From contig NZ_JACDOH010000001.1 in assembly GCF_017656155.1 (NCBI RefSeq), positions 124,001 to 188,000 of the forward strand: a stretch of DNA of 64,000 nucleotides, written 5' to 3'. The first letter of the stretch is position 1. Each line of letters starts with the position of its first letter. The position numbers and the translations under genes are program-made. The DNA is from Thermosyntropha sp. (lineage in GTDB: Bacteria > Bacillota > Syntrophomonadia > Syntrophomonadales > Syntrophomonadaceae). Shown here in pieces: positions 11,598-62,815 of this stretch. Under the pieces are notes generated by a model. It saw only the letters and a list, made by a program, of their open reading frames with translations, ran no database searches and was not told where the DNA came from.

Positions 11598-12346
11598 ATG
11601 AAGGAAATATAAAAAGGATAAAGCTTGTAATTGAATACGATGGTACTAATTATCACGGTTTTCAGGTGCAGAACAACGCCCATACGGTGCAGGCTGAGCT
11701 GGGACAGGCTATCCTGAAACTTACTGGTGAAAGGGTTAGTGTTATTTCAGCCGGGCGCACAGATGCCGGAGTACACGCATTAGGACAGGTAGTAGTTTTT
11801 AGTACCTCATCTACTATACCTGTTGATAAATGGAAGCCAGCCTTGAACAGTGTTTTACCGCGGGATATCAGGGTTTTGCAAAGTTCAACTGTTGATGAAA
11901 ATTTTCATCCCCGATTCAGCGCTATAAAAAAGACTTACCGTTATATTATTTATCGGCAAGAGGAAGGAGCAGTCTTTTACCGCAATTATGCCTGGATAAA
12001 TGCAGAAAAATTAAATATTGAAGAGATGAGGAAAGCTGCCCATTTTATTTTGGGGAGGCATGATTTCAGATCTTTTTGCAGCAGCGGCTCAGCGGTAAAA
12101 AATTTTGAGCGAACAGTTACAAGATTGGATATAGAAGAAAAGAAACCTTTCCTGATTCTGGAGATAGAAGCTGATGGTTTTTTATACAATATGGTTAGAA
12201 TAATAGTAGGAACACTGGTGGAAGTAGGTAAAGGCACATATAGTTCAGAATATGTGAAAGAGATTATTGAGTCTAAAGATAGGAATAAAGCTGGAGCAAC
12301 TGCACCGCCTCAAGGGCTTTATCTGGTAAAGGTAGAATACCTATAA
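11594..12346 (+). CDS. truA: tRNA pseudouridine(38-40) synthase TruA
   Basis: This enzyme isomerises uridines 38-40 in the tRNA anticodon arm. The catalytic aspartate lies in SAGRTDAGVHALGQ, and IEYDGTNYHGFQ is the usual N-terminal motif. The ATG at 11594 overlaps the ecfT stop as ATGA and gives a typical N-terminus (250 residues). An in-frame GTG at 11573 sits only two bases from AGGAGGA and is less likely. truA after ecfT is the standard Firmicute order. Confidence 0.95.
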   Translation: MNEGNIKRIKLVIEYDGTNYHGFQVQNNAHTVQAELGQAILKLTGERVSVISAGRTDAGVHALGQVVVFSTSSTIPVDKWKPALNSVLPRDIRVLQSSTVDENFHPRFSAIKKTYRYIIYRQEEGAVFYRNYAWINAEKLNIEEMRKAAHFILGRHDFRSFCSSGSAVKNFERTVTRLDIEEKKPFLILEIEADGFLYNMVRIIVGTLVEVGKGTYSSEYVKEIIESKDRNKAGATAPPQGLYLVKVEYL

Positions 12347-12365
12347 TAAAACTTAAACCCTTTTC

Positions 12366-12398
12366 TTGACAAAAGGAAATAAGATTAGCTAATATAAT
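12366..12398 (+). promoter_or_regulatory. Probable promoter for rplM-rpsI
   Basis: A perfect -35 TTGACA at 12366-12371 is followed after 18 bases by TAATAT (12390-12395); an overlapping TATAAT at 12393-12398 would need 21 bases. It lies in the gap between truA and the leader hairpin. Confidence 0.6.
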
Positions 12399-12400
12399 TA

Positions 12401-12489
12401 GGTAGGCTTATTTTTATATGCCTGTCTGGCCCCGTTGGCAGGTATATAAAAATAAAAAGCTGTAAGCAAGATAAACAGGAGGGAACGAT
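12401..12489 (+). promoter_or_regulatory. Candidate L13 ribosomal-protein leader
   Basis: A 16-bp helix with one G-U pair joins 12409-12424 to 12439-12454, closing a G/C-rich 14-base loop. It lies between the promoter and rplM. Firmicutes commonly have an autoregulatory L13 leader RNA upstream of rplM-rpsI, and this hairpin is in that place. Assignment to the Rfam L13 leader family is by position and general shape only. Confidence 0.6.
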
Positions 12490-12924
12490 GTGAAAACCTA
12501 CATGGCCAAACCTGCGGAAATTGAACGCAAATGGTATGTTATAGATGCTAGTGGACAGACACTTGGTAGGCTTGCTTCAGAAGTTGCAACAATTTTGAGA
12601 GGCAAACATAAACCGATATATACACCTCATGTTGATACCGGAGATTATGTAATCATTATTAATGCAGAAAAGGTTGTTTTAACTGGCAACAAACTGGATG
12701 AGAAGTTATATCGCCGTCATTCCGGGTATCCAGGCGGTTTAAAGGAAATGACCTATCGCGAATTCCTGCAGAAAAAGCCGGAAAAAGCCATTGAAGTAGC
12801 AGTAAAAGGGATGCTTCCACATAACCGCTTGGGAAGAAAGATGTTTAAAAAACTTAAAGTGTATAGAGGAAGCGAACATCCGCATCAGGCTCAAAAACCA
12901 GAAATTCGCGAGCTTAGAGGGTAA
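12490..12924 (+). CDS. rplM: 50S ribosomal protein L13
   Basis: This 144-residue L13 contains [17 protein letters not shown], the [13 protein letters not shown] segment and the [19 protein letters not shown] motif. It is an early assembly protein of the large subunit. The start is GTG at 12490; the ATG two bases earlier is immediately followed by a stop. It forms an operon with rpsI. Confidence 0.97.
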
Positions 12925-12935
12925 GGAGGATGAAG

Positions 12936-13328
12936 ATGGCAAAGGTACAATACTGGGGAACCGGACGCAGAAAAAAAGCTATAGCCAGAGTTAGGTTAAT
13001 ACCTGGTGATGGCAGAATTATTATAAATAACCGTGAGTTTGAAGATTTCTTTCCTAACAAGGTCAGCCGCCTTATAGTTAAACAGCCTTTAGTGCTGACC
13101 GATATGGAAGGCAGATTTGATGTTATATGCCGGGTACACGGCGGAGGAGTAAGCGGGCAGGCAGGTGCTGTTCGTTTAGGTATTGCACGGGCTTTAGTTA
13201 AAGCAAATCCTGATTTAAGACCGCAGCTTAAAAAAGCCGGTTTCTTAACCCGCGATCCACGCATGAAGGAAAGAAAAAAATACGGATTGCACAAAGCAAG
13301 AAAAGCACCGCAGTACTCCAAACGCTAA
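12936..13328 (+). CDS. rpsI: 30S ribosomal protein S9
   Basis: This 130-residue S9 begins [20 protein letters not shown] and ends with the basic tail KAPQYSKR whose last arginine contacts P-site tRNA. An upstream in-frame ATG at 12930 overlaps the AAGGAGGA ribosome binding site, so the ATG at 12936 is preferred. A strong terminator follows. Confidence 0.97.
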
Positions 13329-13343
13329 AAACAAAAAAAATGC

Positions 13344-13387
13344 AAAGGAGACATTTCTCAAATGCGAGAATGTCTCCTTTTATTTTT
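13344..13387 (+). terminator. Terminator after rpsI
   Basis: A roughly 15-bp stem (arms at 13344-13359 and 13366-13380, with one bulge) is followed by TATTTTT. It closes the rplM-rpsI unit. Confidence 0.85.
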
Positions 13388-13493
13388 GCTCCAAGTTATT
13401 TAACTTAAACTTCCTTGTGAACATCTAGTTATTAAAAGGGGGCTGAAAGCATATATAAAACTAATAATAAGATTATGCCCAGGGGGAAAATAA

Positions 13494-14213
13494 GTGCAGA
13501 GGAAACAGGTCAAGATAGTTGTATGTTTATTTTTGCTGCTCACATTTATGGTGATAAGATGGGAAAACAAAACTGAGACAGAGCTTATGGTGTATAATGT
13601 TGCCAGTAAGGTAATAGTAATTGATCCCGGACATGGTGGAATAGATACGGGAGCAACCCGGGGAAATATTATAGAAAAGGATATAACTCTAAAAATGAGC
13701 CAAAAATTAGCCTCTGAACTGGCTGCAGCAGGAGCAGCTGTAATAATGACCCGCAGCAGCGATACTGATTTGGTAGAGGATAATTTTAAGGGAAGTTACC
13801 GGGAGAGGCACCGGAAAGGCCTTAGCAAAAGGGTAGAAAAGGCTAATCAAACCGGGGCTGATTTATTTGTCAGCATCCATACCAATGCAGATCCCAACCC
13901 GCGCTGGTCAGGAGCTCAGACTTTTTACCATCAGCAAAGTGAAGAAAGCAAAAAAGCGGCTGAAGCTATACAAAGTGAAATAAAAAGGCTTTTAAAAAAT
14001 ACTAAAAGGGATGCATTAGCGGGCGACTACTTTGTAATGAACAATACAGAAATGCCTGCAGTTTTAGTAGAAGTAGGATTTATATCCAACTATAAGGAAG
14101 GTAAATTGTTAACTGATGAAGAATATCAGAAAAAAATGGCCCATGCTATATGTTCAGGAATAGTGAAGTATTTTGCTTCAGAATCAGGAGTAAATGAAAA
14201 GGCTAAAAGATAA
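13494..14213 (+). CDS. cwlD: Spore-cortex N-acetylmuramoyl-L-alanine amidase CwlD
   Basis: This is a 239-residue Amidase_3 protein with an uncleaved N-terminal membrane segment (about residues 6-20). The catalytic region has VIDPGHGGIDTGA (zinc histidine), SIHTNAD and the VEVGFISN motif with the catalytic glutamate. CwlD trims peptides from muramic acid so that muramic-delta-lactam can form in the spore cortex, which is needed for germination. Size, single anchor and absence of repeats fit CwlD better than vegetative amidases. The start is GTG behind AGGGGGAA. Confidence 0.88.
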   Translation: MQRKQVKIVVCLFLLLTFMVIRWENKTETELMVYNVASKVIVIDPGHGGIDTGATRGNIIEKDITLKMSQKLASELAAAGAAVIMTRSSDTDLVEDNFKGSYRERHRKGLSKRVEKANQTGADLFVSIHTNADPNPRWSGAQTFYHQQSEESKKAAEAIQSEIKRLLKNTKRDALAGDYFVMNNTEMPAVLVEVGFISNYKEGKLLTDEEYQKKMAHAICSGIVKYFASESGVNEKAKR

Positions 14214-14225
14214 GGAGGCCTTGAT

Positions 14226-15620
14226 ATGCTGGTTTATGCAGCTCTTTCTCCCCACCCTCCCTTGCTTATTCCGGAAATTGGGGGGACAAACCTTGGAAAA
14301 GTAGAAAAAATCGTAGATAGCATGAAAAAAATAGCAGATGATATTAAAGGGGCTGATCCCGAAACTATTGTTTTTTTTACTCCTCATGGCAATGTTTTCA
14401 GTGATTGTCTTAGTGCTCTTAGTATGCCTGAATTAAAAGGAGATTTTGCCGCATTTGGCTGTAGGAATGTTAATTTTAAGGTAGAAAACGACCTTACTTT
14501 GCTTAAGAAAGTTGCAGTGCAGGCAAAAGATGAAGGTATAGATTTTATTCTAATAGATGAAGAAACAGCCGCAAGAAATCGCCTTAATGCAAGGCTTGAC
14601 CATGGGATATTAGTTCCCATGTATTATCTTAAAAAGGCAGGGCTTGATGATGTTGCAATATTAGCTATCAGCATAGGCTATTTACCGTTTTTAAAACTTT
14701 ATAAATTTGGCAAAATTGTAGAGAAAGCTGCCGCCGACCTTGGCAGAAGAGTGGCGATTGTAGCCTCTGGAGATATGTCGCACCGTTTGAAGGAAGAGGG
14801 ACCTTACAGTTATCATCCCGATGGCCCGGAGTTTGACCGGATGATAAAAGAACACATGGAAAAAGGAGAAGTTGAAGCTTTGCTGAAAATACCAAATGAT
14901 ATAAGGGAAAATGCCGGGGAGTGTGGCTACCGCTCGCTGGTTATGATGCTGGGAAGCTTAGATGGTAGAGATTTTCAAATAAAACATTTGGAATATGCCG
15001 GCCCATTTGGTGTAGGTTATCTTACTGCAGGTTTGCTGCCGGGAAACCAGGGGATAAGCTATCTTAACAAAATGGAAAATGATGAGAAAAAGAAAATGGG
15101 AGAAATAAGAAAAAATGAATCTCTTCCGGTTAGGTGGGCGCGAATGGTTTTGGAAAGCTATATTACCGAACAAAAAATACCTGAACTTCCAGCTGAAATG
15201 AAAACTCTGGAGAAGCAAAAGGCGGCTGCCTTTGTTTCGCTTAAAAAATACGGAAGCCTTAGAGGGTGTATAGGAACGATTCTTCCTGCCCATGAAAACC
15301 TGGCTTTAGAGATTGCCTATAATGCAATAAGTGCTGGAACCCGTGATCCCCGGTTTTTGCCAGTGGAAAAAGAGGAGCTTAAGGATTTAGTTTATTCGGT
15401 AGATGTTTTAGAAAAACCTGAGCCTTGTACTAAGGATGATTTAGATCCGAAGAACTATGGAGTAATAGTAAGCAAAGGCAGCCGGCGTGGTCTTCTTTTG
15501 CCGGATCTGGAAGGAGTAGACACTGTAGAAGAACAGCTTTCAATTGCTTTACAAAAGGCAGGAATAAGACCGGATGAAGATTATCAGATAGAGAGGTTTA
15601 AAGTTACAAGATATACTTAA
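14226..15620 (+). CDS. AmmeMemoRadiSam fusion: LigB-like domain plus AMMECR1 domain
   Basis: This is a 464-residue two-domain protein. Residues ~1-270 resemble the class III extradiol dioxygenase catalytic (LigB) / Memo-like fold: SPHPPLLIPEIGG at the N-terminus, FTPHG, LDHGILVPMYYL and ASGDMSHRL, which supply histidines and acidic residues of a possible metal site. Residues ~290-464 are an AMMECR1 domain (FVSLKKYGSLRGCIGTI, ISAGTRDPRF, LLPDLEGVDTVEEQL). AMMECR1, Memo-type and a radical SAM enzyme form a conserved trio of unknown function. The radical SAM partner starts 16 bases downstream and cwlD ends 12 bases upstream. Substrate and reaction are unknown. Confidence 0.88.
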   Translation: MLVYAALSPHPPLLIPEIGGTNLGKVEKIVDSMKKIADDIKGADPETIVFFTPHGNVFSDCLSALSMPELKGDFAAFGCRNVNFKVENDLTLLKKVAVQAKDEGIDFILIDEETAARNRLNARLDHGILVPMYYLKKAGLDDVAILAISIGYLPFLKLYKFGKIVEKAAADLGRRVAIVASGDMSHRLKEEGPYSYHPDGPEFDRMIKEHMEKGEVEALLKIPNDIRENAGECGYRSLVMMLGSLDGRDFQIKHLEYAGPFGVGYLTAGLLPGNQGISYLNKMENDEKKKMGEIRKNESLPVRWARMVLESYITEQKIPELPAEMKTLEKQKAAAFVSLKKYGSLRGCIGTILPAHENLALEIAYNAISAGTRDPRFLPVEKEELKDLVYSVDVLEKPEPCTKDDLDPKNYGVIVSKGSRRGLLLPDLEGVDTVEEQLSIALQKAGIRPDEDYQIERFKVTRYT

Positions 15621-15636
15621 AGATTGGTGAAAGGAT

Positions 15637-16638
15637 ATGATTAAGATTAAGGAAGCTTTGTTTTATGAAAGGCTAGAGGAAGATAAAGTGAAATGTCTTT
15701 TATGTCCGCATGAATGCAGGATAATGCCCGGGAGAACTGGTATTTGCCGGATGAGAAGAAACCTGGAAGGAAAACTCGTAAGTTTAAATTACGGTAGACT
15801 GGCTGCTCTGGCCTTAGACCCAATTGAAAAAAAGCCTTTTTATCATTTCTATCCCGGGAAAAATATTTTATCGGCGGGGACAGCAGGCTGCAATTTTTCC
15901 TGCGGATTTTGCCAGAACTACCATTTAGCTCATGAAATCCCTGACTTATATGAGGTGGATCTGTCTGGGCTGGTTGCCGTGACAATGGATGCGCAAAGAA
16001 AAGATTCGATAGGATTAGCTTTTACTTATAATGAGCCTTTGATATGGTATGAATATGTTTTGGAAACAGCTGAAATTTTAAAAAATGAAAATCTGAAAAC
16101 AGTTTTAGTTACCAACGGTTATATAAAAAAGAAGCCTTTAAAAAGGCTTTTGCCCTGTATAGATGCCTTAAACATTGATGTAAAAGCCTTTACCGATGAG
16201 TTTTACCGGAGAAACTGCCGGGGAGATTTAAAAACGGTTATGCAGACGGTGGAGGAGGCAGCTTTAACTGGGCATGTGGAGATTACTACCCTTATAATTC
16301 CGGGAGAAAATGACAGTGAAGAAGAATTAAGAAATCTTTCCCGCTGGCTTGCCGAATTAAATCCGGATATTCCTCTGCACTTTTCCCGCTATTATCCGGC
16401 TTATAAATTTACTTCCAGTCCTACTCCGGAAGGAACGTTAAAAAAAGCCCGGGATATTGCAAAAGAGTATCTTAACTTTGTTTATTTAGGTAATCTTCCG
16501 GGAGAACAAAACAATACCCCGTGTTTGAATTGCGGTAATATTTTGATAAAGAGGGATGGTTATAAAACTCAATTTGTAAATTTTGAAAATGGAAAGTGCC
16601 GCTCGTGCGGAGCTGAAGCTTATTATATAAAGATGTAA
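15637..16638 (+). CDS. AmmeMemoRadiSam system radical SAM enzyme
   Basis: This is a 333-residue radical SAM protein. The cluster motif is CNFSCGFC (CxxxCxxC) near residue 87. An N-terminal CLLCPHECRIMPGRTGICR segment, which resembles that of activating-enzyme relatives, is extra to the core. A C-terminal four-cysteine knuckle (CLNCG ... CRSCG) could bind zinc or a second cluster. Family members always travel with AMMECR1/Memo-like genes, as here, and the substrate is not known. The ATG follows GAAAGGAT, 16 bases after the fusion gene, so the two are almost certainly co-transcribed. Confidence 0.92.
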   Translation: MIKIKEALFYERLEEDKVKCLLCPHECRIMPGRTGICRMRRNLEGKLVSLNYGRLAALALDPIEKKPFYHFYPGKNILSAGTAGCNFSCGFCQNYHLAHEIPDLYEVDLSGLVAVTMDAQRKDSIGLAFTYNEPLIWYEYVLETAEILKNENLKTVLVTNGYIKKKPLKRLLPCIDALNIDVKAFTDEFYRRNCRGDLKTVMQTVEEAALTGHVEITTLIIPGENDSEEELRNLSRWLAELNPDIPLHFSRYYPAYKFTSSPTPEGTLKKARDIAKEYLNFVYLGNLPGEQNNTPCLNCGNILIKRDGYKTQFVNFENGKCRSCGAEAYYIKM

Positions 16639-16642
16639 GAAA

Positions 16643-16704
16643 GGGAAGGCAGAAAAGCCTTCCCTATCTATATGAAAGCTTATCGGGAATAATCCCGACA
16701 AGCT
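16643..16704 (+). terminator. Two tandem hairpins after the radical SAM gene
   Basis: The first is a perfect 8-bp stem GGGAAGGC/GCCTTCCC (16643-16650, 16657-16664). The second is AGCTT-A-TCGGGA paired with TCCCGA-C-AAGCT (16677-16704). Neither has a clear T-run, so they may act together as a weak terminator or transcript stabiliser. Confidence 0.5.
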
Positions 16705-16831
16705 ATTCTAAATTTATCTTTTCCATAAAATAAGATATGAATACATAAGGGAAAAAGTTACAGAAATATTCTAAAATTAAGACTTTTAGTATAGTATATA
16801 GTTAGTAGGAAAAAATAGGGGGGAAGGTGTA

Positions 16832-17614
16832 ATGAGTTATAGGTATGTGAAAATCGAACGTGAAAACTATACTGGTATATTGTGGGTTAGTAGGCCGGAG
16901 GTATTAAATGCACTTAATACTGAGGTTTTAATGGAAATAGGAAAAGCGATTGATGAACTCGGCAGGGATGAAGGAGTAAGGGCAATTATTGTTACCGGAG
17001 TTGGAGATAAGGCCTTTGTGGCTGGAGCTGACATCAGGGAAATGCAGTCTTTAAATGCAGTCCAAGGCAGGAGTTTTGGGAAAACAGGTCAGGAGGTTTT
17101 TAGAAAAATTGAGGAGCTTGAAAAACCGGTTATTGCAGCGATAAATGGTTTTGCTTTAGGTGGCGGATGTGAATTGGCCATGGCTGCCGATATCAGGCTG
17201 GCATCTGACAAGGCTAAATTCGGACAACCGGAGGTGACTTTAGGTATTATTCCCGGCTTTGGAGGAACCCAGCGTTTAAGCCGGCTTATAGGCAAAGGGC
17301 GGGCTATGGAGCTTATCCTGACCGGCAGCATGATAAGCGCTGAAGAAGCATACCGGATTGGTTTGGTTAACTATGTTTATCCTGCAAATGAACTATTGAA
17401 AGAAGCAAAGAAAATGGCAGAAAAGATAACTTCCAATGCCCCGTTGGCTGTGAAATTTGCAAAATCGGCCATAAACAAAGGGGGACAGACCGATATAGAC
17501 ACCGGTATGAGCATAGAAGCCGATCTTTTTGGTTTATGTTTTGCAACGGAAGACCAGAAAAGTGGAATGAAAGCGTTTATAAACAAAGAAAAAGTGGAGT
17601 TTAAGGGATGTTGA
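16832..17614 (+). CDS. Enoyl-CoA hydratase / crotonase
   Basis: This is a 260-residue crotonase-fold enzyme. It contains the oxyanion-hole and catalytic motif AINGFALGGGCELAMAAD, with catalytic glutamates at E114 and E134 (GQPEVTLGIIPGFGGTQRL). Both glutamates are present, so it should hydrate 2-enoyl-CoA (crotonyl-CoA to 3-hydroxybutyryl-CoA) or run the reverse, either in fatty-acid oxidation or in butyrate formation. No other beta-oxidation genes adjoin it, so it appears monocistronic. The ATG follows GGGGGGAAGG. Confidence 0.92.
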   Translation: MSYRYVKIERENYTGILWVSRPEVLNALNTEVLMEIGKAIDELGRDEGVRAIIVTGVGDKAFVAGADIREMQSLNAVQGRSFGKTGQEVFRKIEELEKPVIAAINGFALGGGCELAMAADIRLASDKAKFGQPEVTLGIIPGFGGTQRLSRLIGKGRAMELILTGSMISAEEAYRIGLVNYVYPANELLKEAKKMAEKITSNAPLAVKFAKSAINKGGQTDIDTGMSIEADLFGLCFATEDQKSGMKAFINKEKVEFKGC

Positions 17615-17647
17615 AATAAAATTAATTGTCGATTAGATTTTTGATGA

Positions 17648-17667
17648 GGGCGTAAAGCCCGTTTTTT
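17648..17667 (+). terminator. Weak terminator after the crotonase gene
   Basis: A short GGGC/GCCC stem (17648-17651 and 17656-17659) is followed by G and six T residues. The stem is short but the T-run is clear. Confidence 0.45.
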
Positions 17668-17832
17668 GTTTATAAGTCTGCTTTATGAATTAGATAGCCG
17701 AAAATAAACATAAAAATATGCAGGATTATATTGGAAGAAGGAGAAATAGAAAGAAGAAAGTTTTTTCAAAATAAACACAATAATCATAATATTTGTTCAG
17801 GTAATATATGCCGGAAGATAAGGAGGGGTAAT

Positions 17833-19029
17833 ATGCTTAACCGCCGCAATATAACAGCTGAAGAACTGCGCCAAAAGGATGAAGAAATAGCCCGCTTAAA
17901 AAGAGAAATCAGTATTTTAAAGGCAGTTAAGAATGCCATGCCTGATGCTTATTACATAAGGGATATGGACTACAACATAATATTATGGTCTAAAAATATG
18001 GAAGAACTTACAGGTTACAAGGAGAGCGAAGTTTTAGGGAAAAAGTGTTATGACATTATAAAAGCTCCAGTGTGCAAGGATTGTCCTACCCAGAAGTGCG
18101 TTTTAAATAAATCCGGATTTGTGAAAGAAGCTCAAGATACCATGTATGACCGTTATGGCAACCCTAAGGTATGTTTAGTTTCTAATGGAGGAGTATATGA
18201 TGAAGAAGGTAATCCAATAGGGGCTATTGAGATAAGCAAAGATATAACTAAATATCACAACCTTACCAGTTCAGTTGGTGAACAGGCAGAACAGCTCAGT
18301 GCAGTATCTGAGGAGTTGGCTGCTTCTTCGCAGGAAGTAAGCGATCTTTCTGAAAAAGTAAGCGAAAATTCAGCTGAAGTTTTGCGTTTAACTGAAATTG
18401 GAGTAGAAAATACCCGAAAAATTAATGAGAAAACCATTTATTGCCAGGAATTTGCAGTCAGTATAAAAGAAAACATAGAGCAAATTAATCGTTCAATGCG
18501 CGCTTCGGTAGATAAAACTGGTATTTTGAAGCAGAAGTCGGAATTCATAATAAATGTTGTAACTTCTATTCAGAATATAGCTTCCCAGACTAATCTTTTG
18601 GCATTAAATGCTTCCATTGAAGCTGCTCGGGCTGGAGAGGCGGGCAAAGGTTTCGCAGTGGTAGCCGATGAAATAAGGAAACTGGCGGAAAGCTCAAATA
18701 TATCAGCTCAGGAGATTAAAGGAACCATTGATGAAATTATTAAACTGGTTATGGATGCTACTGAATATTTGGGAAGCACAGCAAGAGAGTTGGAGGAAGG
18801 ACAAAACCGCATAATGGAACTGGCACATCTGATAGAAGAAATTGCCGGCGAATCAGAACAGCGCTTTGAACTTATGGAAGATATAAATAAAGCAGCTACC
18901 TATACTTCTAGAATAAGTGAAGAACAGAGCCAATCTATGCAGGAGGTAGCAAGGGTAGGCCAGGAGCTGGCAGTGATAGCTCAAAAGCTGCAGGAAGAGC
19001 TGGAAAAGATGAGAAATGTGAGTTTGTAA
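17833..19029 (+). CDS. Soluble PAS-domain methyl-accepting chemotaxis protein with cysteine-rich PAS
   Basis: This is a 398-residue chemoreceptor without membrane segments, so it should act in the cytoplasm. A short coiled coil (residues ~8-30) leads into a PAS domain (~35-140). The PAS domain carries five cysteines, C72, C81, C84, C89 and C114, of which C81/C84/C89 form a CxxCxxxxC cluster. The signalling domain (~145-398) has the CheA/CheW hairpin tip [21 protein letters not shown]. The cysteines suggest sensing through a metal, cluster or redox change, which is inference. The ATG at 17833 has AGGAGGGG in front; the frame is open upstream but without a ribosome binding site. Confidence 0.9.
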
Positions 19030-19067
19030 GATGAGTAGTGCCAGAGATTAAAAAGCAGGCTTATAAT

Positions 19068-19108
19068 AAAATATTCCCGGTGACAAAAAACCGGGAATAT
19101 TTAGTTTT
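19068..19108. terminator. Bidirectional terminator between chemoreceptor and minus-strand gene
   Basis: A perfect 12-bp stem, AAATATTCCCGG/CCGGGAATATTT (19068-19080 and 19091-19102), is flanked by A/T-rich tails on both sides. It can serve the plus-strand chemoreceptor and the convergent minus-strand gene. Confidence 0.75.
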
Positions 19109-19162
19109 ATAAACATGGTTATAGAATTTTGTAATTTAAAGCAATTTAAAAATTTTTTTAGA

Positions 19163-19498
19163 TTAACCTTTATAAAAGCTGCTTATAAATGAATAGCCAA
19201 TTAGAATACCGATTGCATCTTTAAAAAAACTGTTGATTACCATGTGATAGCGGATAAAAATGTCTTGCACATTAAAAATCAATATTAGATAAAATGCTAA
19301 CAAAGGAATCGTAAATACCATAATTTGCAGCTTATCAAGTTTCCAACTTCCGGGAATGCTGTATTGCCTTGTTATGTGGATAATACCTAAAATGATACCA
19401 AGTATAATATAAGAGAGATTAATAATACTTAATTGAATTACAGCGTTATATGTTTTTGAATAATATTTATTAGAAATAAACACGGCAGCAGATAGCAT
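19163..19498 (-). CDS. Hypothetical small membrane protein, possibly 5'-truncated
   Basis: The 111-residue frame from ATG at 19498 contains three strongly hydrophobic stretches (IIILGIILGII-like near residue 35, IMVFTIPLLAFYLILIF near 65, and AIGILIGYSFISS near the end). I do not recognise the family. There is no ribosome binding site before this ATG. The frame continues upstream to a TTG at 19522, but those codons are the antisense of a chemoreceptor remnant, so the true 5' end may have been lost at a recombination junction near 19500. Confidence 0.5.
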   Translation of the reverse strand: MLSAAVFISNKYYSKTYNAVIQLSIINLSYIILGIILGIIHITRQYSIPGSWKLDKLQIMVFTIPLLAFYLILIFNVQDIFIRYHMVINSFFKDAIGILIGYSFISSFYKG

Positions 19499-19502
19499 TC
19501 CT

Positions 19503-19795
19503 GAAACTGGCGGAAAGTTCAAATCTATTTGCTCAGGAGATAAAAGGCACTATAGATGAGATAACCGTTTAGTAGCCCAGGCTACCCAGTATCTTTTAGA
19601 TACCGCCAGGGAGCTGGAAGAAGGACAAAAGCGGATAACGGAGCTTGCCGGCTCAAGATGTAGAGCTGCAAATAGTTTTTATTACTAAAGTGCAAGCTGC
19701 CATAAATGAACTGAAAGAAGAAACCGAGATGACAGTAAACGTTCAAGACAATATAATAACAGCAGCTATACAATATCCGGACAGCATAAGCTGAC
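19503..19795 (+). pseudogene. Decayed fragment of a methyl-accepting chemotaxis protein
   Basis: Translated in pieces, this stretch reads [20 protein letters not shown], then two consecutive stop codons near 19570. After a frame change it reads [25 protein letters not shown]. It clearly parallels residues [20 protein letters not shown] through [16 protein letters not shown] of the intact receptor encoded at 17833-19029. It has no 5' part, at least two disruptions and a further frame change around 19655. The remaining ~140 bases are open in a third frame to a TGA near 19793. It is a relic of a tandem or dispersed receptor paralogue. Confidence 0.8.
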
Positions 19796-19808
19796 CTCAG
19801 CAAATCCG

Positions 19809-19850
19809 AAGCCCTGCGGGAGCCTTATCGGCTGACCTGCAGGGCTTTTG
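19809..19850 (+). terminator. Terminator hairpin
   Basis: A 9-bp stem AAGCCCTGC/GCAGGGCTT (19809-19817, 19839-19847) encloses a smaller AGCC/GGCT hairpin and runs into TTTT. It lies just after the chemoreceptor remnant and probably once ended it. Confidence 0.75.
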
Positions 19851-19929
19851 ATATGTTTTCCCGCTTTTTCTTTCTGTTTTTCCTGGCGAGGTTTATAATG
19901 GAAAAAAGGCTTAAAGGGGAGGGAATGAG

Positions 19930-20589
19930 GTGGATATTAATATAGTAACATTGGGAATAACCAACACTTACATTATTAAGGGCAAGAACGGTTATATTAT
20001 GGTTGATGCAGGAGAGCTCAGAAAGGAAAAGAGTTTTTTAAGGCAGGTTAAAAACTTAGGAATTGACCCTAAAAAAATTAATCTTATCATTATTACCCAC
20101 GCTCATTTTGACCATATTGGAAGTTTGGCGGATATTAAGAATATGTGCGGTTGTCCGGTGCTTATTCATCCATATGAGGCGGATATTCTAGCCAGAGGTG
20201 AGGTGGTTATACCACCAGGGACTAATACGGCGGGAAGTGTTATGAGCACAATGGGAAAAGGTTTAAAATTTTTGTTCCGCTTTAAACCGGTTACAGCAGA
20301 GCTCAGGTGTGAAGGGGAGTTTGACCTGCGTCCTTACGGGGTTAATGGAAGGGTTATCCCGACCCCGGGTCATACAAAAGGGTCTCTTTCGGTGGTTTTA
20401 GATGACGGCAGAGCAATGGTAGGGGATTTGGCCATGAATTTTGCCTTTCAGAAGACGAATTATCCCATTTTTGCTGAAATGCCGGAAGAGGTTTATAAAA
20501 GTTGGGATAAGATAAAAAAAGCGGGAGCAGAAACTATTTATCCTGCTCATGGAGCCTGCTTCCCAGTCAGCAATCTGATAGAAAAATAA
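19930..20589 (+). CDS. Metallo-beta-lactamase-fold hydrolase
   Basis: This 219-residue protein has the binuclear metal motif THAHFDHIG (H57, H59, D61, H62), the third-site histidine H148 in TPGHTKGS, the bridging D166 in VGDL and H207 in YPAHG. All ligands are present, so a hydrolase is expected, of the broad group that includes glyoxalase II and various thioesterase- or lactonase-like enzymes. The substrate cannot be told from sequence. It starts with GTG behind AGGGGAGGG and is flanked by terminators, so it is transcribed alone. Confidence 0.88.
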   Translation: MDINIVTLGITNTYIIKGKNGYIMVDAGELRKEKSFLRQVKNLGIDPKKINLIIITHAHFDHIGSLADIKNMCGCPVLIHPYEADILARGEVVIPPGTNTAGSVMSTMGKGLKFLFRFKPVTAELRCEGEFDLRPYGVNGRVIPTPGHTKGSLSVVLDDGRAMVGDLAMNFAFQKTNYPIFAEMPEEVYKSWDKIKKAGAETIYPAHGACFPVSNLIEK

Positions 20590-20619
20590 AAATAATATAA
20601 GCTTGGAAGGGGATTTTTT

Positions 20620-20647
20620 AAGGCAGCTTTAAACGGCTGCCTTTTTT
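20620..20647 (+). terminator. Terminator before the arginine operon
   Basis: The stem GGCAGC/GCTGCC (20622-20627, 20636-20641) has a TTTAAACG loop and six T residues. The same AGCTTTAAACGGCT core recurs in the terminator after argG. Confidence 0.85.
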
Positions 20648-20681
20648 GTTTTTGAAGCAGGTTAAGAATGACAGAACACCA

Positions 20682-20710
20682 TTGAAAAAATATTCATATA
20701 GATGTATAAT
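20682..20710 (+). promoter_or_regulatory. argC promoter with overlapping ArgR-like box
   Basis: The -35 TTGAAA (20682-20687) and -10 TATAAT (20705-20710) are separated by exactly 17 bases. An imperfect palindrome TGAAAAAATATTCA (20683-20696) overlaps the -35 and resembles the arginine-repressor box consensus (TGAAT-A/T-rich-ATTCA). Binding here would block RNA polymerase when arginine is plentiful. The repressor gene is not in the window. Confidence 0.75.
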
Positions 20711-20794
20711 TATAAAAACATTATGGAATCTTACAGGATATGGTTATTAAATTTAAGATTCGTAAATAAGGTCAGCAAAGGAGGTTTTTAAAAA

Positions 20795-21841
20795 ATGGCA
20801 AAATATAAGATAGGCATAATCGGGGATGGTTATACGGCTGCTGACCTTTTAAGGTTGATGGCAGGTCATGATGAAATAGAACCGGTTTGCATATTTTCGG
20901 TTGATAACATAGGAAAGAGAATAGATGAGGTATATCCAAGCCTTGCGCACTTTAGCTCTTTGGTTTGTGAACCTACCGATTTGGGGACTATAAAGAAAAA
21001 ATGTGATGCAGTTTTTTTGGCTCTTCCTCATGGACTTTCAGTGCCAATAGTTTCCGAACTGGCAGCTGCCGGGATAAAGTGTATTGATTTAGGAGCAGAT
21101 TTTAGGCTGAAAGATGCCCGTGTTTATGCTGCCTATTATGATAAAGAGCATGAAAATCCGTATCTTTTAAATAAGGCAGTTTACGGTATACCTGAACTTA
21201 ATCGGGAGAAGATAAAAAATGCAGATATTATAGCAAATCCCGGATGTTTTCCGACCAGTGCTATAATCCCCCTCTCTCCCCTGCTTAAAGCTGGAGTGGT
21301 TGAAAGTGAGAATATAATCATAGATTCGAAAACTGGGGTATCAGGGGCAGGGAGAAGTTTGAAGCTTGCCAGCATGTTTTGTGAAGTAAATGAAGGGGTA
21401 AAAGCTTATAGTGTAGGAAGACACCGGCATATGCCGGAGATAGCTCAGGAGCTAAGCTTGGCTGCCGGTAAAGAAGTTGACCTTGTTTTTACTCCCCACC
21501 TTGTTCCCATGAGCCGCGGAATTTTAAGCACGATTTATGTAAGGCTTAAGCCGGGGGTTAAGGGTAAAGAGATAAGAGAAGTTTTAGAAGAACAGTATGA
21601 AAATGAGTTTTTTGTTCGACTTCTGCCGAATGGACTTATGCCCCAGACCAGGTGGGTTTATGGCAGTAATTTTATAGATATAGGGATTTATAGCGATGAA
21701 AATAGAGGAAAGGCTATTTTGGTTTCAGCAATAGATAATTTGGTTAAAGGGGCTTCAGGGCAGGCCCTGCAAAATTTAAACCTGGTTTTGAGATTGGAAG
21801 AAGGAAAAGGGTTAAAAAATTTAGCACCATTATTTCCATAA
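20795..21841 (+). CDS. argC: N-acetyl-gamma-glutamyl-phosphate reductase
   Basis: This 348-residue enzyme reduces N-acetylglutamyl-5-phosphate to the semialdehyde with NADPH. The nucleotide-binding start is GIIGDGYTAADLLRL, and the catalytic cysteine is C151 in IANPGCFPTSA. Residues GRHRHMPEI belong to the active-site region. It is the first gene of argCJBDFG, behind AAAGGAGG. Confidence 0.97.
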   Translation: MAKYKIGIIGDGYTAADLLRLMAGHDEIEPVCIFSVDNIGKRIDEVYPSLAHFSSLVCEPTDLGTIKKKCDAVFLALPHGLSVPIVSELAAAGIKCIDLGADFRLKDARVYAAYYDKEHENPYLLNKAVYGIPELNREKIKNADIIANPGCFPTSAIIPLSPLLKAGVVESENIIIDSKTGVSGAGRSLKLASMFCEVNEGVKAYSVGRHRHMPEIAQELSLAAGKEVDLVFTPHLVPMSRGILSTIYVRLKPGVKGKEIREVLEEQYENEFFVRLLPNGLMPQTRWVYGSNFIDIGIYSDENRGKAILVSAIDNLVKGASGQALQNLNLVLRLEEGKGLKNLAPLFP

Positions 21842-59709: not shown

Positions 59710-61635
59710 ATGTCTGATGACTTTAACCGCCTGATTAAAGAAGACAGAGAAAGAAGAAAACATGAGAGTTTTAGAGGGACTTTTCTGGATTATCTTAATA
59801 TAGTTAAAGAAAACAAAGATGTAGCGATGCTGGCTCATGAAAGGATGTACCGGCTCATTACTGAACCGGGGACAGAAGTCGTAAAGACGGAGGATGACCC
59901 CCGTTTAAGGCGTATTTACGGGCATGATATTATAAAAAGATATAGGTTTTTTGCCGACGATTTCTTTGGGATTGATAAAACCATTATGGAGATAGTCCGG
60001 TACTTTCATTCTGCGGCTATGCGGGGTGAAGAATCGAGACAGGTATTGTATCTGGTGGGACCGGTAGGGTCCGGAAAATCCTCTATTATGGAAAGCCTTA
60101 AAAGAGCCCTGGAAAACAGCCCGCCTATTTATGCTTTAGAGGGATGTCCTATGCGGGAAGAACCTCTGCATCTGCTTCCCAAGCACTTAAGGCCTGAATT
60201 TGAAAGGATTTTAGGGGTAAAGATTGAAGGGGATTTATGTCCGATATGCAGATATCGCCTGATTAATGAATATAAGGGGGAATATGAAAAATTCGGGGTA
60301 GTAACGGTTGATTTTTCTGTCCGTTCGCGTAAAGGGATAGCGGTTGTGCCTCCGGTTGACCCTAATAATCAGGATACCTCGGTGCTTATTGGTTCGGTAG
60401 ACATATCTAAAATGGATTTGTATCCGGAAGATGATCCGCGGGTTTTAACGCTTAATGGAGCCTTTAATGCTGGTAACCGTGGTATTGTAGAGTTTATTGA
60501 GATATTTAAAAATGATGTTGAATATCTACATACCATAATTACCGCTACTCAGGAAAAATCAATACCTTCTCCCGGAAAAGGACCTATGATTTATTTTGAT
60601 GGCATAATTCTGGCTCACTCTAATGAAGCGGAATGGAACAAATTTAAATCAGATAACACTAATGAAGCTATTTTAGACCGCATAGTAAAGATAGAGGTTC
60701 CTTATTGTCTGGAATTAGACCAGGAAGTAAAGATATATCGCAAAATTTTGAGACAGAGCAAGTTTGATGCTCATATTGCTCCTCATACTATTGAAGTGGC
60801 TTCAATGTTTGCCATTTTAAGCCGCCTTAATCCTTCCAACAAGGTAGATATAATGACTAAGATGCGTATTTACAATGGGGAAGAGATAGTTCAAAAAGAT
60901 GCTCAGCCGCGGATTGATATTCAGGAGTTAAGAGAAGAAGCGGGCAAGGAAGGGTTTAAAGGTATATCTACCCGCTTTATTATGAAGGCTATAGATAATG
61001 CCTTATCTGAATCTCCTCATAATTGCATAAATCCCATTATTGTTATGGAATCCCTGATAAAATCGGTTAAAGCGACTGATATGCCGGATGATGAGAAACA
61101 GAAGCTCTTGGGGTATCTTAAGGATACCATAAAGAAAGAGTATCACCGCATATTAGAAAAGGAGATCACCAGAGCCTTTATTCATGGTTATCGTGAACAG
61201 GCAGAAACTTTATTTAACAATTATTTAGATCATGCAGAAGCTTTTGTAAATAAAACTAAGCTCAAAGACAAGAATACTGGCGAAGAGTTGGAACCGGATG
61301 AAAAATTTATGGAATCTATCGAGGCTCAGATAGGACTTACAGGAAATGCGGCCAAAGGCTTCAGGCATGATGTTACTTCCTATATGTTTTCCCTTTTGCG
61401 CAATAAAAAGAAAATTGATTATGAAAGTTATGAACCTTTAAGAGAGGCTATTGAAAAGAAACTGACTGCTTCGGTGCGCGAAATTTCCCGTGTTATTACC
61501 AGTGCCAGAGTTAGGGATGAGGAACAAAAGCGCAAATATGATGCGATGGTAGAAGAGATGAAAAGGAACGGTTATTGTGATCACTGCTGTAATGTAGTTT
61601 TGAAGTATGCAGCTAATAATTTGTGGAGAGACTGA
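59710..61635 (+). CDS. prkA: PrkA family AAA-domain serine protein kinase
   Basis: This 641-residue protein has an AAA domain with Walker A GPVGSGKSS (~117-125) and a C-terminal kinase-like domain with REISRVITSARVRDEEQKRK. CPICRYRLINEYKG is a conserved cysteine-containing loop. PrkA, YhbH and SpoVR are encoded together in spore-formers and in other bacteria, where the trio influences stress or sporulation; the exact chemistry is unclear. The ATG follows AAGGGAGGGG. Confidence 0.95.
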   Translation: MSDDFNRLIKEDRERRKHESFRGTFLDYLNIVKENKDVAMLAHERMYRLITEPGTEVVKTEDDPRLRRIYGHDIIKRYRFFADDFFGIDKTIMEIVRYFHSAAMRGEESRQVLYLVGPVGSGKSSIMESLKRALENSPPIYALEGCPMREEPLHLLPKHLRPEFERILGVKIEGDLCPICRYRLINEYKGEYEKFGVVTVDFSVRSRKGIAVVPPVDPNNQDTSVLIGSVDISKMDLYPEDDPRVLTLNGAFNAGNRGIVEFIEIFKNDVEYLHTIITATQEKSIPSPGKGPMIYFDGIILAHSNEAEWNKFKSDNTNEAILDRIVKIEVPYCLELDQEVKIYRKILRQSKFDAHIAPHTIEVASMFAILSRLNPSNKVDIMTKMRIYNGEEIVQKDAQPRIDIQELREEAGKEGFKGISTRFIMKAIDNALSESPHNCINPIIVMESLIKSVKATDMPDDEKQKLLGYLKDTIKKEYHRILEKEITRAFIHGYREQAETLFNNYLDHAEAFVNKTKLKDKNTGEELEPDEKFMESIEAQIGLTGNAAKGFRHDVTSYMFSLLRNKKKIDYESYEPLREAIEKKLTASVREISRVITSARVRDEEQKRKYDAMVEEMKRNGYCDHCCNVVLKYAANNLWRD

Positions 61636-61645
61636 GGGTGGTTTT

Positions 61646-62815
61646 ATGGCTGTCTTTCGGGATTTTGAAGGTGAAGGAAGGGACAGGAGCGCTGAGGATC
61701 GCAGGAGGCACAGAGAGCTGGTAGAAGATTCCATAAAGCGGAATATAGGCAGTATAGTGGCAGAAGAAAGTATCATTGGGCAAAGTAAGGAAAAGGTATT
61801 TAAAATACCAATAAGAGGAATAAAGGAATACCGATTTGTTTATGGAGAAAACAGACCGGGGGTAGCCTCAGGCAAGGGTGATGAAAAGAGAGGTCAGAGA
61901 ATTCCGGGAAATAGAGGGGGAGAGATTCCCCAGGCAGGGAATGGAGCAGGAAGTATAGAGGGTGAGGATATTTATGAAACTGAAATCACTTTGGAAGAAT
62001 TGATTGAATATATGTTTGAAGATTTAGATCTTCCGTATATGGAAAAAAAGAAGTTCTCCTATATTCAATCAGAAAAAAGCACTAAGAGGTGGGGGATACA
62101 GAGAAAAGGGATTCCCCCGCGCCTTAACAAAAAAAGGTCTATGATGGAGAGGATAAAGCGGAAGAAAGCTGCAGAGAGGACATTAAGGGAATTAGGATTG
62201 GATGAGGAAATAGAAAGATTCCCCTTTAGCGAGGAAGATCTGCGCTATCAACGGGTAAAAGAAGACATAAGACCGGAGTCTAATGCTGTTGTTATATGTA
62301 TTATGGATAATTCAGGCTCCATGTATCTAAGTAAAAAGTATATGGCGCGCAGCTTTTTTTTCCTGCTCTATCAGTTTGTCCGCTATCGTTATGCCAATGT
62401 GGATCTAGTATTTATAAATCATACTACTACGGCTAAAGAGGTAGATGAAGATTCTTTTTTTCATAGGGGAGAATCAGGAGGGACTATAATCAGCAGCGGC
62501 TATGAAAAGGCTTTGGAAATTATAAATGAGAGGTATGACAAAGAGATCTGGAATATATATGCGTTTCACTGCAGTGATGGTGATAACTGGCCGGAAGATA
62601 TAGCCAGAGCAGTAGAAAAGGCTAAGGAGCTTGCTGAGGTGTGTAATTTGTTCGGCTATGGTGAAATTGTTTCTTCCTGGAGTCCTGCCAGTACTATGTT
62701 AAGTGAATATAAGAAGGTCATAAATGCTCCAAATTTTGTTTGTGTTATTTTGAGCAGCAAGGAAGACATATGGCCTGCCTTTAAAAAAATATTAACGGTC
62801 GCCGAGAAGGAGTGA
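61646..62815 (+). CDS. yhbH: YhbH-family protein (DUF444, VWA-like)
   Basis: The 389-residue protein begins MAVFRDFEGEGRDRSAEDRR and has a lysine/arginine-rich middle and a C-terminal von Willebrand A-like domain with IMDNSGSM (~218-225). The Bacillus counterpart is needed for efficient sporulation. ATG at 61646 follows GAGGGTGG; longer upstream frames inside prkA lack a start signal. It lies 10 bases after prkA. Confidence 0.93.
   Translation: MAVFRDFEGEGRDRSAEDRRRHRELVEDSIKRNIGSIVAEESIIGQSKEKVFKIPIRGIKEYRFVYGENRPGVASGKGDEKRGQRIPGNRGGEIPQAGNGAGSIEGEDIYETEITLEELIEYMFEDLDLPYMEKKKFSYIQSEKSTKRWGIQRKGIPPRLNKKRSMMERIKRKKAAERTLRELGLDEEIERFPFSEEDLRYQRVKEDIRPESNAVVICIMDNSGSMYLSKKYMARSFFFLLYQFVRYRYANVDLVFINHTTTAKEVDEDSFFHRGESGGTIISSGYEKALEIINERYDKEIWNIYAFHCSDGDNWPEDIARAVEKAKELAEVCNLFGYGEIVSSWSPASTMLSEYKKVINAPNFVCVILSSKEDIWPAFKKILTVAEKE

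Follow-up and report, generated by a model that had tools for sequence, protein, structure and literature searches.

Introduction

What does a protein that joins relatives of MEMO1 and AMMECR1 do beside a radical SAM enzyme, and does the spore-cortex gene in front of it hold a clue? Conservation of MEMO1 and AMMECR1 reaches as far as humans, and the two have been connected with cancer and with a developmental disorder; to our knowledge, no reaction has been assigned to either. We analyzed a 64,000-nt stretch of a Thermosyntropha sp. genome (the window) in which a fusion of the two kinds of domain precedes a radical SAM gene (rSAM) and follows cwlD. A preliminary description, made from the sequence, had grouped these proteins with a known trio and hinted at a tie to the spore cortex.

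Results

Gene spacing and hairpin placement support, without proving, a single transcript spanning cwlD, the fusion gene and the rSAM gene. The locus comprises the following features:

13340..13395, forward strand: hairpin with a U-rich tail in the rpsI-cwlD gap, with UUUUAUUUUUG after it (-19.8 kcal/mol; z -4.1 relative to shuffles)
13494..14213, forward strand: cwlD, spore-cortex N-acetylmuramoyl-L-alanine amidase, GTG start (TIGR02883, 228.8 bits, cut-off 221.55)
14226..15620, forward strand: AmmeMemoRadiSam fusion protein, 464 aa (family models and AlphaFold2 model)
14238..15020, forward strand: LigB/Memo-superfamily domain of the fusion, residues 5-265 (H10, H54, D125, D183, H186, C233 and GVGY262-265 conserved)
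15129..15614, forward strand: AMMECR1 domain of the fusion, residues 302-463 (LRGCIG 345-350 invariant)
15637..16638, forward strand: AmmeMemoRadiSam radical SAM enzyme, 333 aa (CX3CX2C C85/C89/C92, N-terminal Cys4, C-terminal Cys4 ribbon)
16636..16680, forward strand: strong hairpin directly 3' of the rSAM gene, with no long U-run (-20 kcal/mol, z -4.9)

All three genes point the same way, with cwlD ending 12 bases before the fusion gene and rSAM starting 16 bases after it, as the preliminary description had it. The first hairpin is likely a terminator that divides the ribosomal operon from cwlD-fusion-rSAM, and the second likely marks the end of the transcription unit. At the two internal junctions structure is no better than in shuffles, and no terminator separates cwlD from the fusion. 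These short gaps, together with hairpins at the ends of the unit only, make the proposed co-transcription with cwlD likely. A simple consensus scan of the locus called neither hairpin and found no promoter-like excess, and an Rfam search of 12000-20800 returned zero matches. Elsewhere in the window (59710-62815), adjacent genes resemble a PrkA serine kinase and a DUF444/YhbH-like protein, from sequence reading alone.

The locus holds an unexceptional AmmeMemoRadiSam module of the two-gene kind, fusion plus rSAM; the system is widespread and already has a name. The fusion matches Pfam LigB at 150 bits (residues 5-265) and Pfam AMMECR1 at 156 bits (residues 302-463), bearing out the assignment of both domains to one protein; against Pfam Memo, its N-terminal domain scores 26 bits, just below the cut-off of 27. 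The fusion passes TIGR04335 (AMMECR1-type, 133.2 > 99 bits) comfortably and TIGR04336 (Memo-type, 31.7 > 26 bits) only narrowly, because its N-terminal domain lies nearer LigB than Memo, and rSAM passes TIGR04337 (324.1 > 220 bits). Since both proteins exceed the NCBI curated cut-offs, and their order, fusion then rSAM, is that of the NCBIfam system, the earlier placement in the AMMECR1/Memo/radical SAM trio holds. The source genome has a single AMMECR1 gene and one rSAM over the cut-off, plus one weak rSAM relative. A literature search for a biochemical activity or function of the AmmeMemoRadiSam system found none. Among the closest known counterparts, amrB-amrS of Segatella hominis and Ideonella dechloratans also fuse a metal-binding domain to AMMECR1 with rSAM next, and the PH, SDxSH, CG, VGY and LRGCIG motifs are common to both systems; their N-terminal domain is canonical Memo, whereas the one here belongs to a LigB-like branch.

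Structure models place both proteins among known folds. The AlphaFold2 model of the fusion (mean pLDDT 93.8, pTM 0.84) drew as its best Foldseek matches TK2203, 2-aminophenol and dihydroxyphenylacetate dioxygenases, and archaeal AMMECR1 structures, with MEMO1 lower. TK2203 of Thermococcus (5HEE) is the closest (TM by target 0.89), but it has Asp at the position of the fusion's Cys and its chain lacks an AMMECR1 domain. Human MEMO1 (3BCZ, 7KQ8, 7L5C) shares the fold superfamily and, apparently, the positions of His, His and Cys, yet has no fused AMMECR1 and matches more weakly than the dioxygenases (TM by target ~0.51-0.56). For rSAM (pLDDT 95.7), the closest solved structure is pyruvate formate-lyase (PFL) activating enzyme (3CB8; TM by target 0.78-0.81). 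The two have the CX3CX2C motif in common, but 3CB8 matches the core only, lacking the N-terminal Cys4 and the C-terminal Cys4 ribbon, and it acts on a glycyl radical enzyme, whereas the partner encoded next to rSAM is the Memo-AMMECR1 fusion.

The additional cysteines of rSAM are largely family property. Besides C85/C89/C92, the protein carries C20/C23/C27/C37 at its N-terminus and C296/C299/C321/C324 at its C-terminus. The N-terminal Cys4 is universal in the family (71/71 relatives) and the C-terminal Cys4 optional (57/71), so that the sets described earlier as extra do exist but are not extra.

The dependence between the two genes is one-sided: rSAM is tied to the fusion, while the fusion sometimes occurs without rSAM. 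The fusion is present in 35 of 41 relatives and, in a phylum-wide sample, in 231 of 299 genomes, counting strong matches only (one marginal match, which would make 232, was left out); some genomes carry the two domains as adjacent separate genes. An rSAM over the cut-off occurs in 222 of the 231 fusion genomes versus none of the 68 fusion-negative ones (p = 7e-58). All 222 rSAM genomes thus fall within the fusion set, the best E-value among fusion-negative genomes, 1.7e-40, being far short of the cut-off. Nine of the 231 have the fusion without an over-cut-off rSAM, so the rSAM step is not always needed. A same-strand rSAM gene is present in 70 of 77 fusion stretches. Four fusion-negative genomes of one family (G208, G231, G252, G272) encode an rSAM relative below the cut-off (E 1e-33 to 1e-40), which may belong to a distinct family and have a different partner. 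Two other genomes, G211 and G253, carry two fusion copies each, neither with an over-cut-off rSAM.

The AMMECR1 family is mostly anaerobic. It occurs in 50.66% of 1,293 anaerobes versus 3.38% of 4,227 aerobes and had the highest importance among seven listed anaerobe markers (PMC13386939). This enrichment agrees with a radical SAM partner that is sensitive to oxygen, and it argues against O2-dependent ring cleavage.

Conservation suggests that the N-terminal domain of the fusion has a Memo-type His-His-Cys iron site, formed by H10, H54 and C233. These residues, with D125, D183, H186, G262, G264 and Y265, are present in all 77 homologues, and LRGCIG is present in 69/69 where AMMECR1 is fused. 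The preliminary description had made its account hang on conserved histidines in this domain, and H10, H54 and H186 supply them. MEMO1 binds Fe or Cu via H49, H81 and C244, the last at the position of Glu in LigB and DesB, and it showed no dioxygenase activity on several catechols (PMC11081632). A MAFFT alignment sets C233-G234 on the Cys-Gly of the canonical Segatella and Ideonella fusions, with H54 one column off; when one Memo was aligned by global profile, the Cys came out two positions away. The neighboring E232 could be the ligand instead, since it is conserved in 70/77 homologues (replaced in 7/77) and one extradiol dioxygenase aligns its Glu with it.

The cysteine tracks the company the domain keeps. 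Among the sequences seen here, it accompanies partnership with AMMECR1 in the LigB-like and Memo-like branches alike. It is absent in 16 relatives without AMMECR1, namely twelve secreted Memo-like proteins (ten of them in the combined MAFFT alignment) and four YgiD-like dioxygenase singles, and TK2203 has Asp there. By Pfam LigB and Foldseek the domain does have the LigB superfamily fold. In place of the invariant Glu that is the third iron ligand of LigB dioxygenases, however, it has Cys in 77/77, next to an E232 found in 70/77. Judged by these residues, and with AMMECR1 carriers mostly anaerobes, the LigB-type assignment made earlier is not supported, and the label should yield to Memo-type. 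The twelve secreted or lipoprotein-like Memo-domain proteins (L171-L182) come from some spore-forming relatives, where their genes usually lie beside a gene of ~400 residues; they have PHH, PNH and VDFSH motifs, carry Asp (LDSP) where Memo has Cys, and are not fused to AMMECR1.

Discussion

We tentatively propose, as a reading that falls somewhat short of probable, that the module consists of two enzymes, one with a Memo-type iron site, which together carry out a housekeeping modification, mostly in anaerobes. In the N-terminal domain, H10, H54 and C233 would hold a single ferrous iron in the manner of MEMO1, and D183 and H186 would be catalytic residues close by. The AMMECR1 domain, with its invariant LRGCIG loop, may bind the substrate or supply a thiol. 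The rSAM, resembling PFL activase, would activate a C-H bond by means of a 5'-deoxyadenosyl radical, acting on the same core substrate or on the fusion itself, and the iron domain would then finish the modification with no need for O2. The product would be a housekeeping modification of mostly anaerobic cells, neither an aromatic catabolite nor a part of the spore cortex.

An unlikely competitor holds that rSAM is an activase that modifies a residue of the fusion, as PFL-activating enzyme modifies PFL. The solved structure closest to the rSAM model is that very enzyme with its peptide, and rSAM never exceeds the cut-off without the fusion while the reverse does occur. The Gly-Tyr loop fits as well: GVGY (residues 262-265) is invariant in 77/77, two canonical fusions (Segatella, Ideonella) have RVVGY, and the loop Gly gives way to Ser or Thr in 12 secreted Memo-like proteins. 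Yet four fusion genomes that were checked and lack an over-cut-off rSAM (G053, G190, G211, G253) keep the loop, a persistence that we count against a glycyl radical; it could be purely structural, and the fusion fold differs from that of glycyl radical enzymes. The RVVGY of the Segatella and Ideonella fusions resembles the PFL glycyl radical loop, and MEMO1 presumably has Ser at the position matching the loop Gly. The specific version in which rSAM acts on the glycine of this (R)V-x-G-Y / G-V-G-Y loop in the Memo-AMMECR1 protein, either placing a radical there or modifying it permanently, is a long shot, the least probable idea we consider. If true, rSAM-linked Memo proteins would be activase-dependent metalloenzymes, and Memo proteins without rSAM, such as eukaryotic MEMO1, would have dropped that step.

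It is more doubtful than a general activase role that the module handles iron or copper, in storage, delivery or redox protection, without catalyzing a modification. MEMO1 does bind both metals and has an effect on iron homeostasis (PMC11081632), but D183, H186 and D125 are conserved besides the metal ligands, and the presence of a radical SAM enzyme dedicated to the module and the conservation of the LRGCIG loop likewise point to catalysis.

The position beside cwlD is an old gene order, and the presence of the module is independent of sporulation. Phylum-wide, among the best ~150 matches listed, cwlD lies within 5 kb upstream of the fusion in 71 of 78 same-contig pairs; the two are codirectional in 65 of those 71, and cwlD is divergent in six. 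With its 12-base gap and no terminator, this proximity is what speaks for an operon that serves cortex formation together with cwlD. The gene content speaks otherwise. The fusion occurs in 202/257 SpoIVA-positive versus 29/42 SpoIVA-negative genomes (p = 0.17, a guide only, as genomes are not independent), with no excess seen, so it does not follow the restriction to spore formers expected of a sporulation gene. In five stretches (L102, L103, L105, L126, L149) it follows ribosomal genes (rpsI) with no cwlD, and the top CwlD scorers are without the fusion. Because the fusion is nearly as common without SpoIVA and can follow rpsI without cwlD, we read the arrangement as inherited order, not spore function, and the spore-cortex hint of the preliminary description is not supported. 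Sporulation-sigma consensus scans of 66 regions upstream of cwlD gave 3 sigE-like hits (shuffles ~1) and 2 sigG-like hits (shuffles ~2), and none upstream of cwlD in the window, an unusable signal. A cortex operon is therefore already largely refuted and very improbable; it is the SpoIVA counts that lead us to reject a spore function of the module.

Wider neighborhoods do not name the substrate. Across 80 of them we see one ancestral gene order, ecfA-ecfT-truA-rplM-rpsI-cwlD-fusion-rSAM ... argCJBD, and a variety of other contexts, and no constant partner gene besides rSAM was found, so no substrate is indicated. In several lineages (L118, L121, L150, L157) an arginase-family gene precedes the fusion and rSAM, and in two of these lineages the genes sit inside an ornithine-degradation cluster.

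Slightly less credible even than the cortex operon is a LigB-type extradiol dioxygenase that cleaves the ring of an aromatic substrate: Pfam LigB is the best N-domain model, TK2203 and aminophenol dioxygenases are the top fold matches and most relatives could use E232 as the Glu ligand, but the carboxylate position holds an invariant Cys, E232 is not invariant, O2-dependent chemistry misfits an anaerobe-enriched family, and MEMO1 showed no such activity on several catechols (PMC11081632).

The locus itself is ordinary, yet it bears on the function of Memo and AMMECR1. Genome statistics take away sporulation as a clue to what the module does, and the Cys signature suggests that the LigB-like branch should be studied as Memo. 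The bacterial form brings relatives of MEMO1 and AMMECR1 together with a radical SAM enzyme in what is likely one short operon, expressible and testable.
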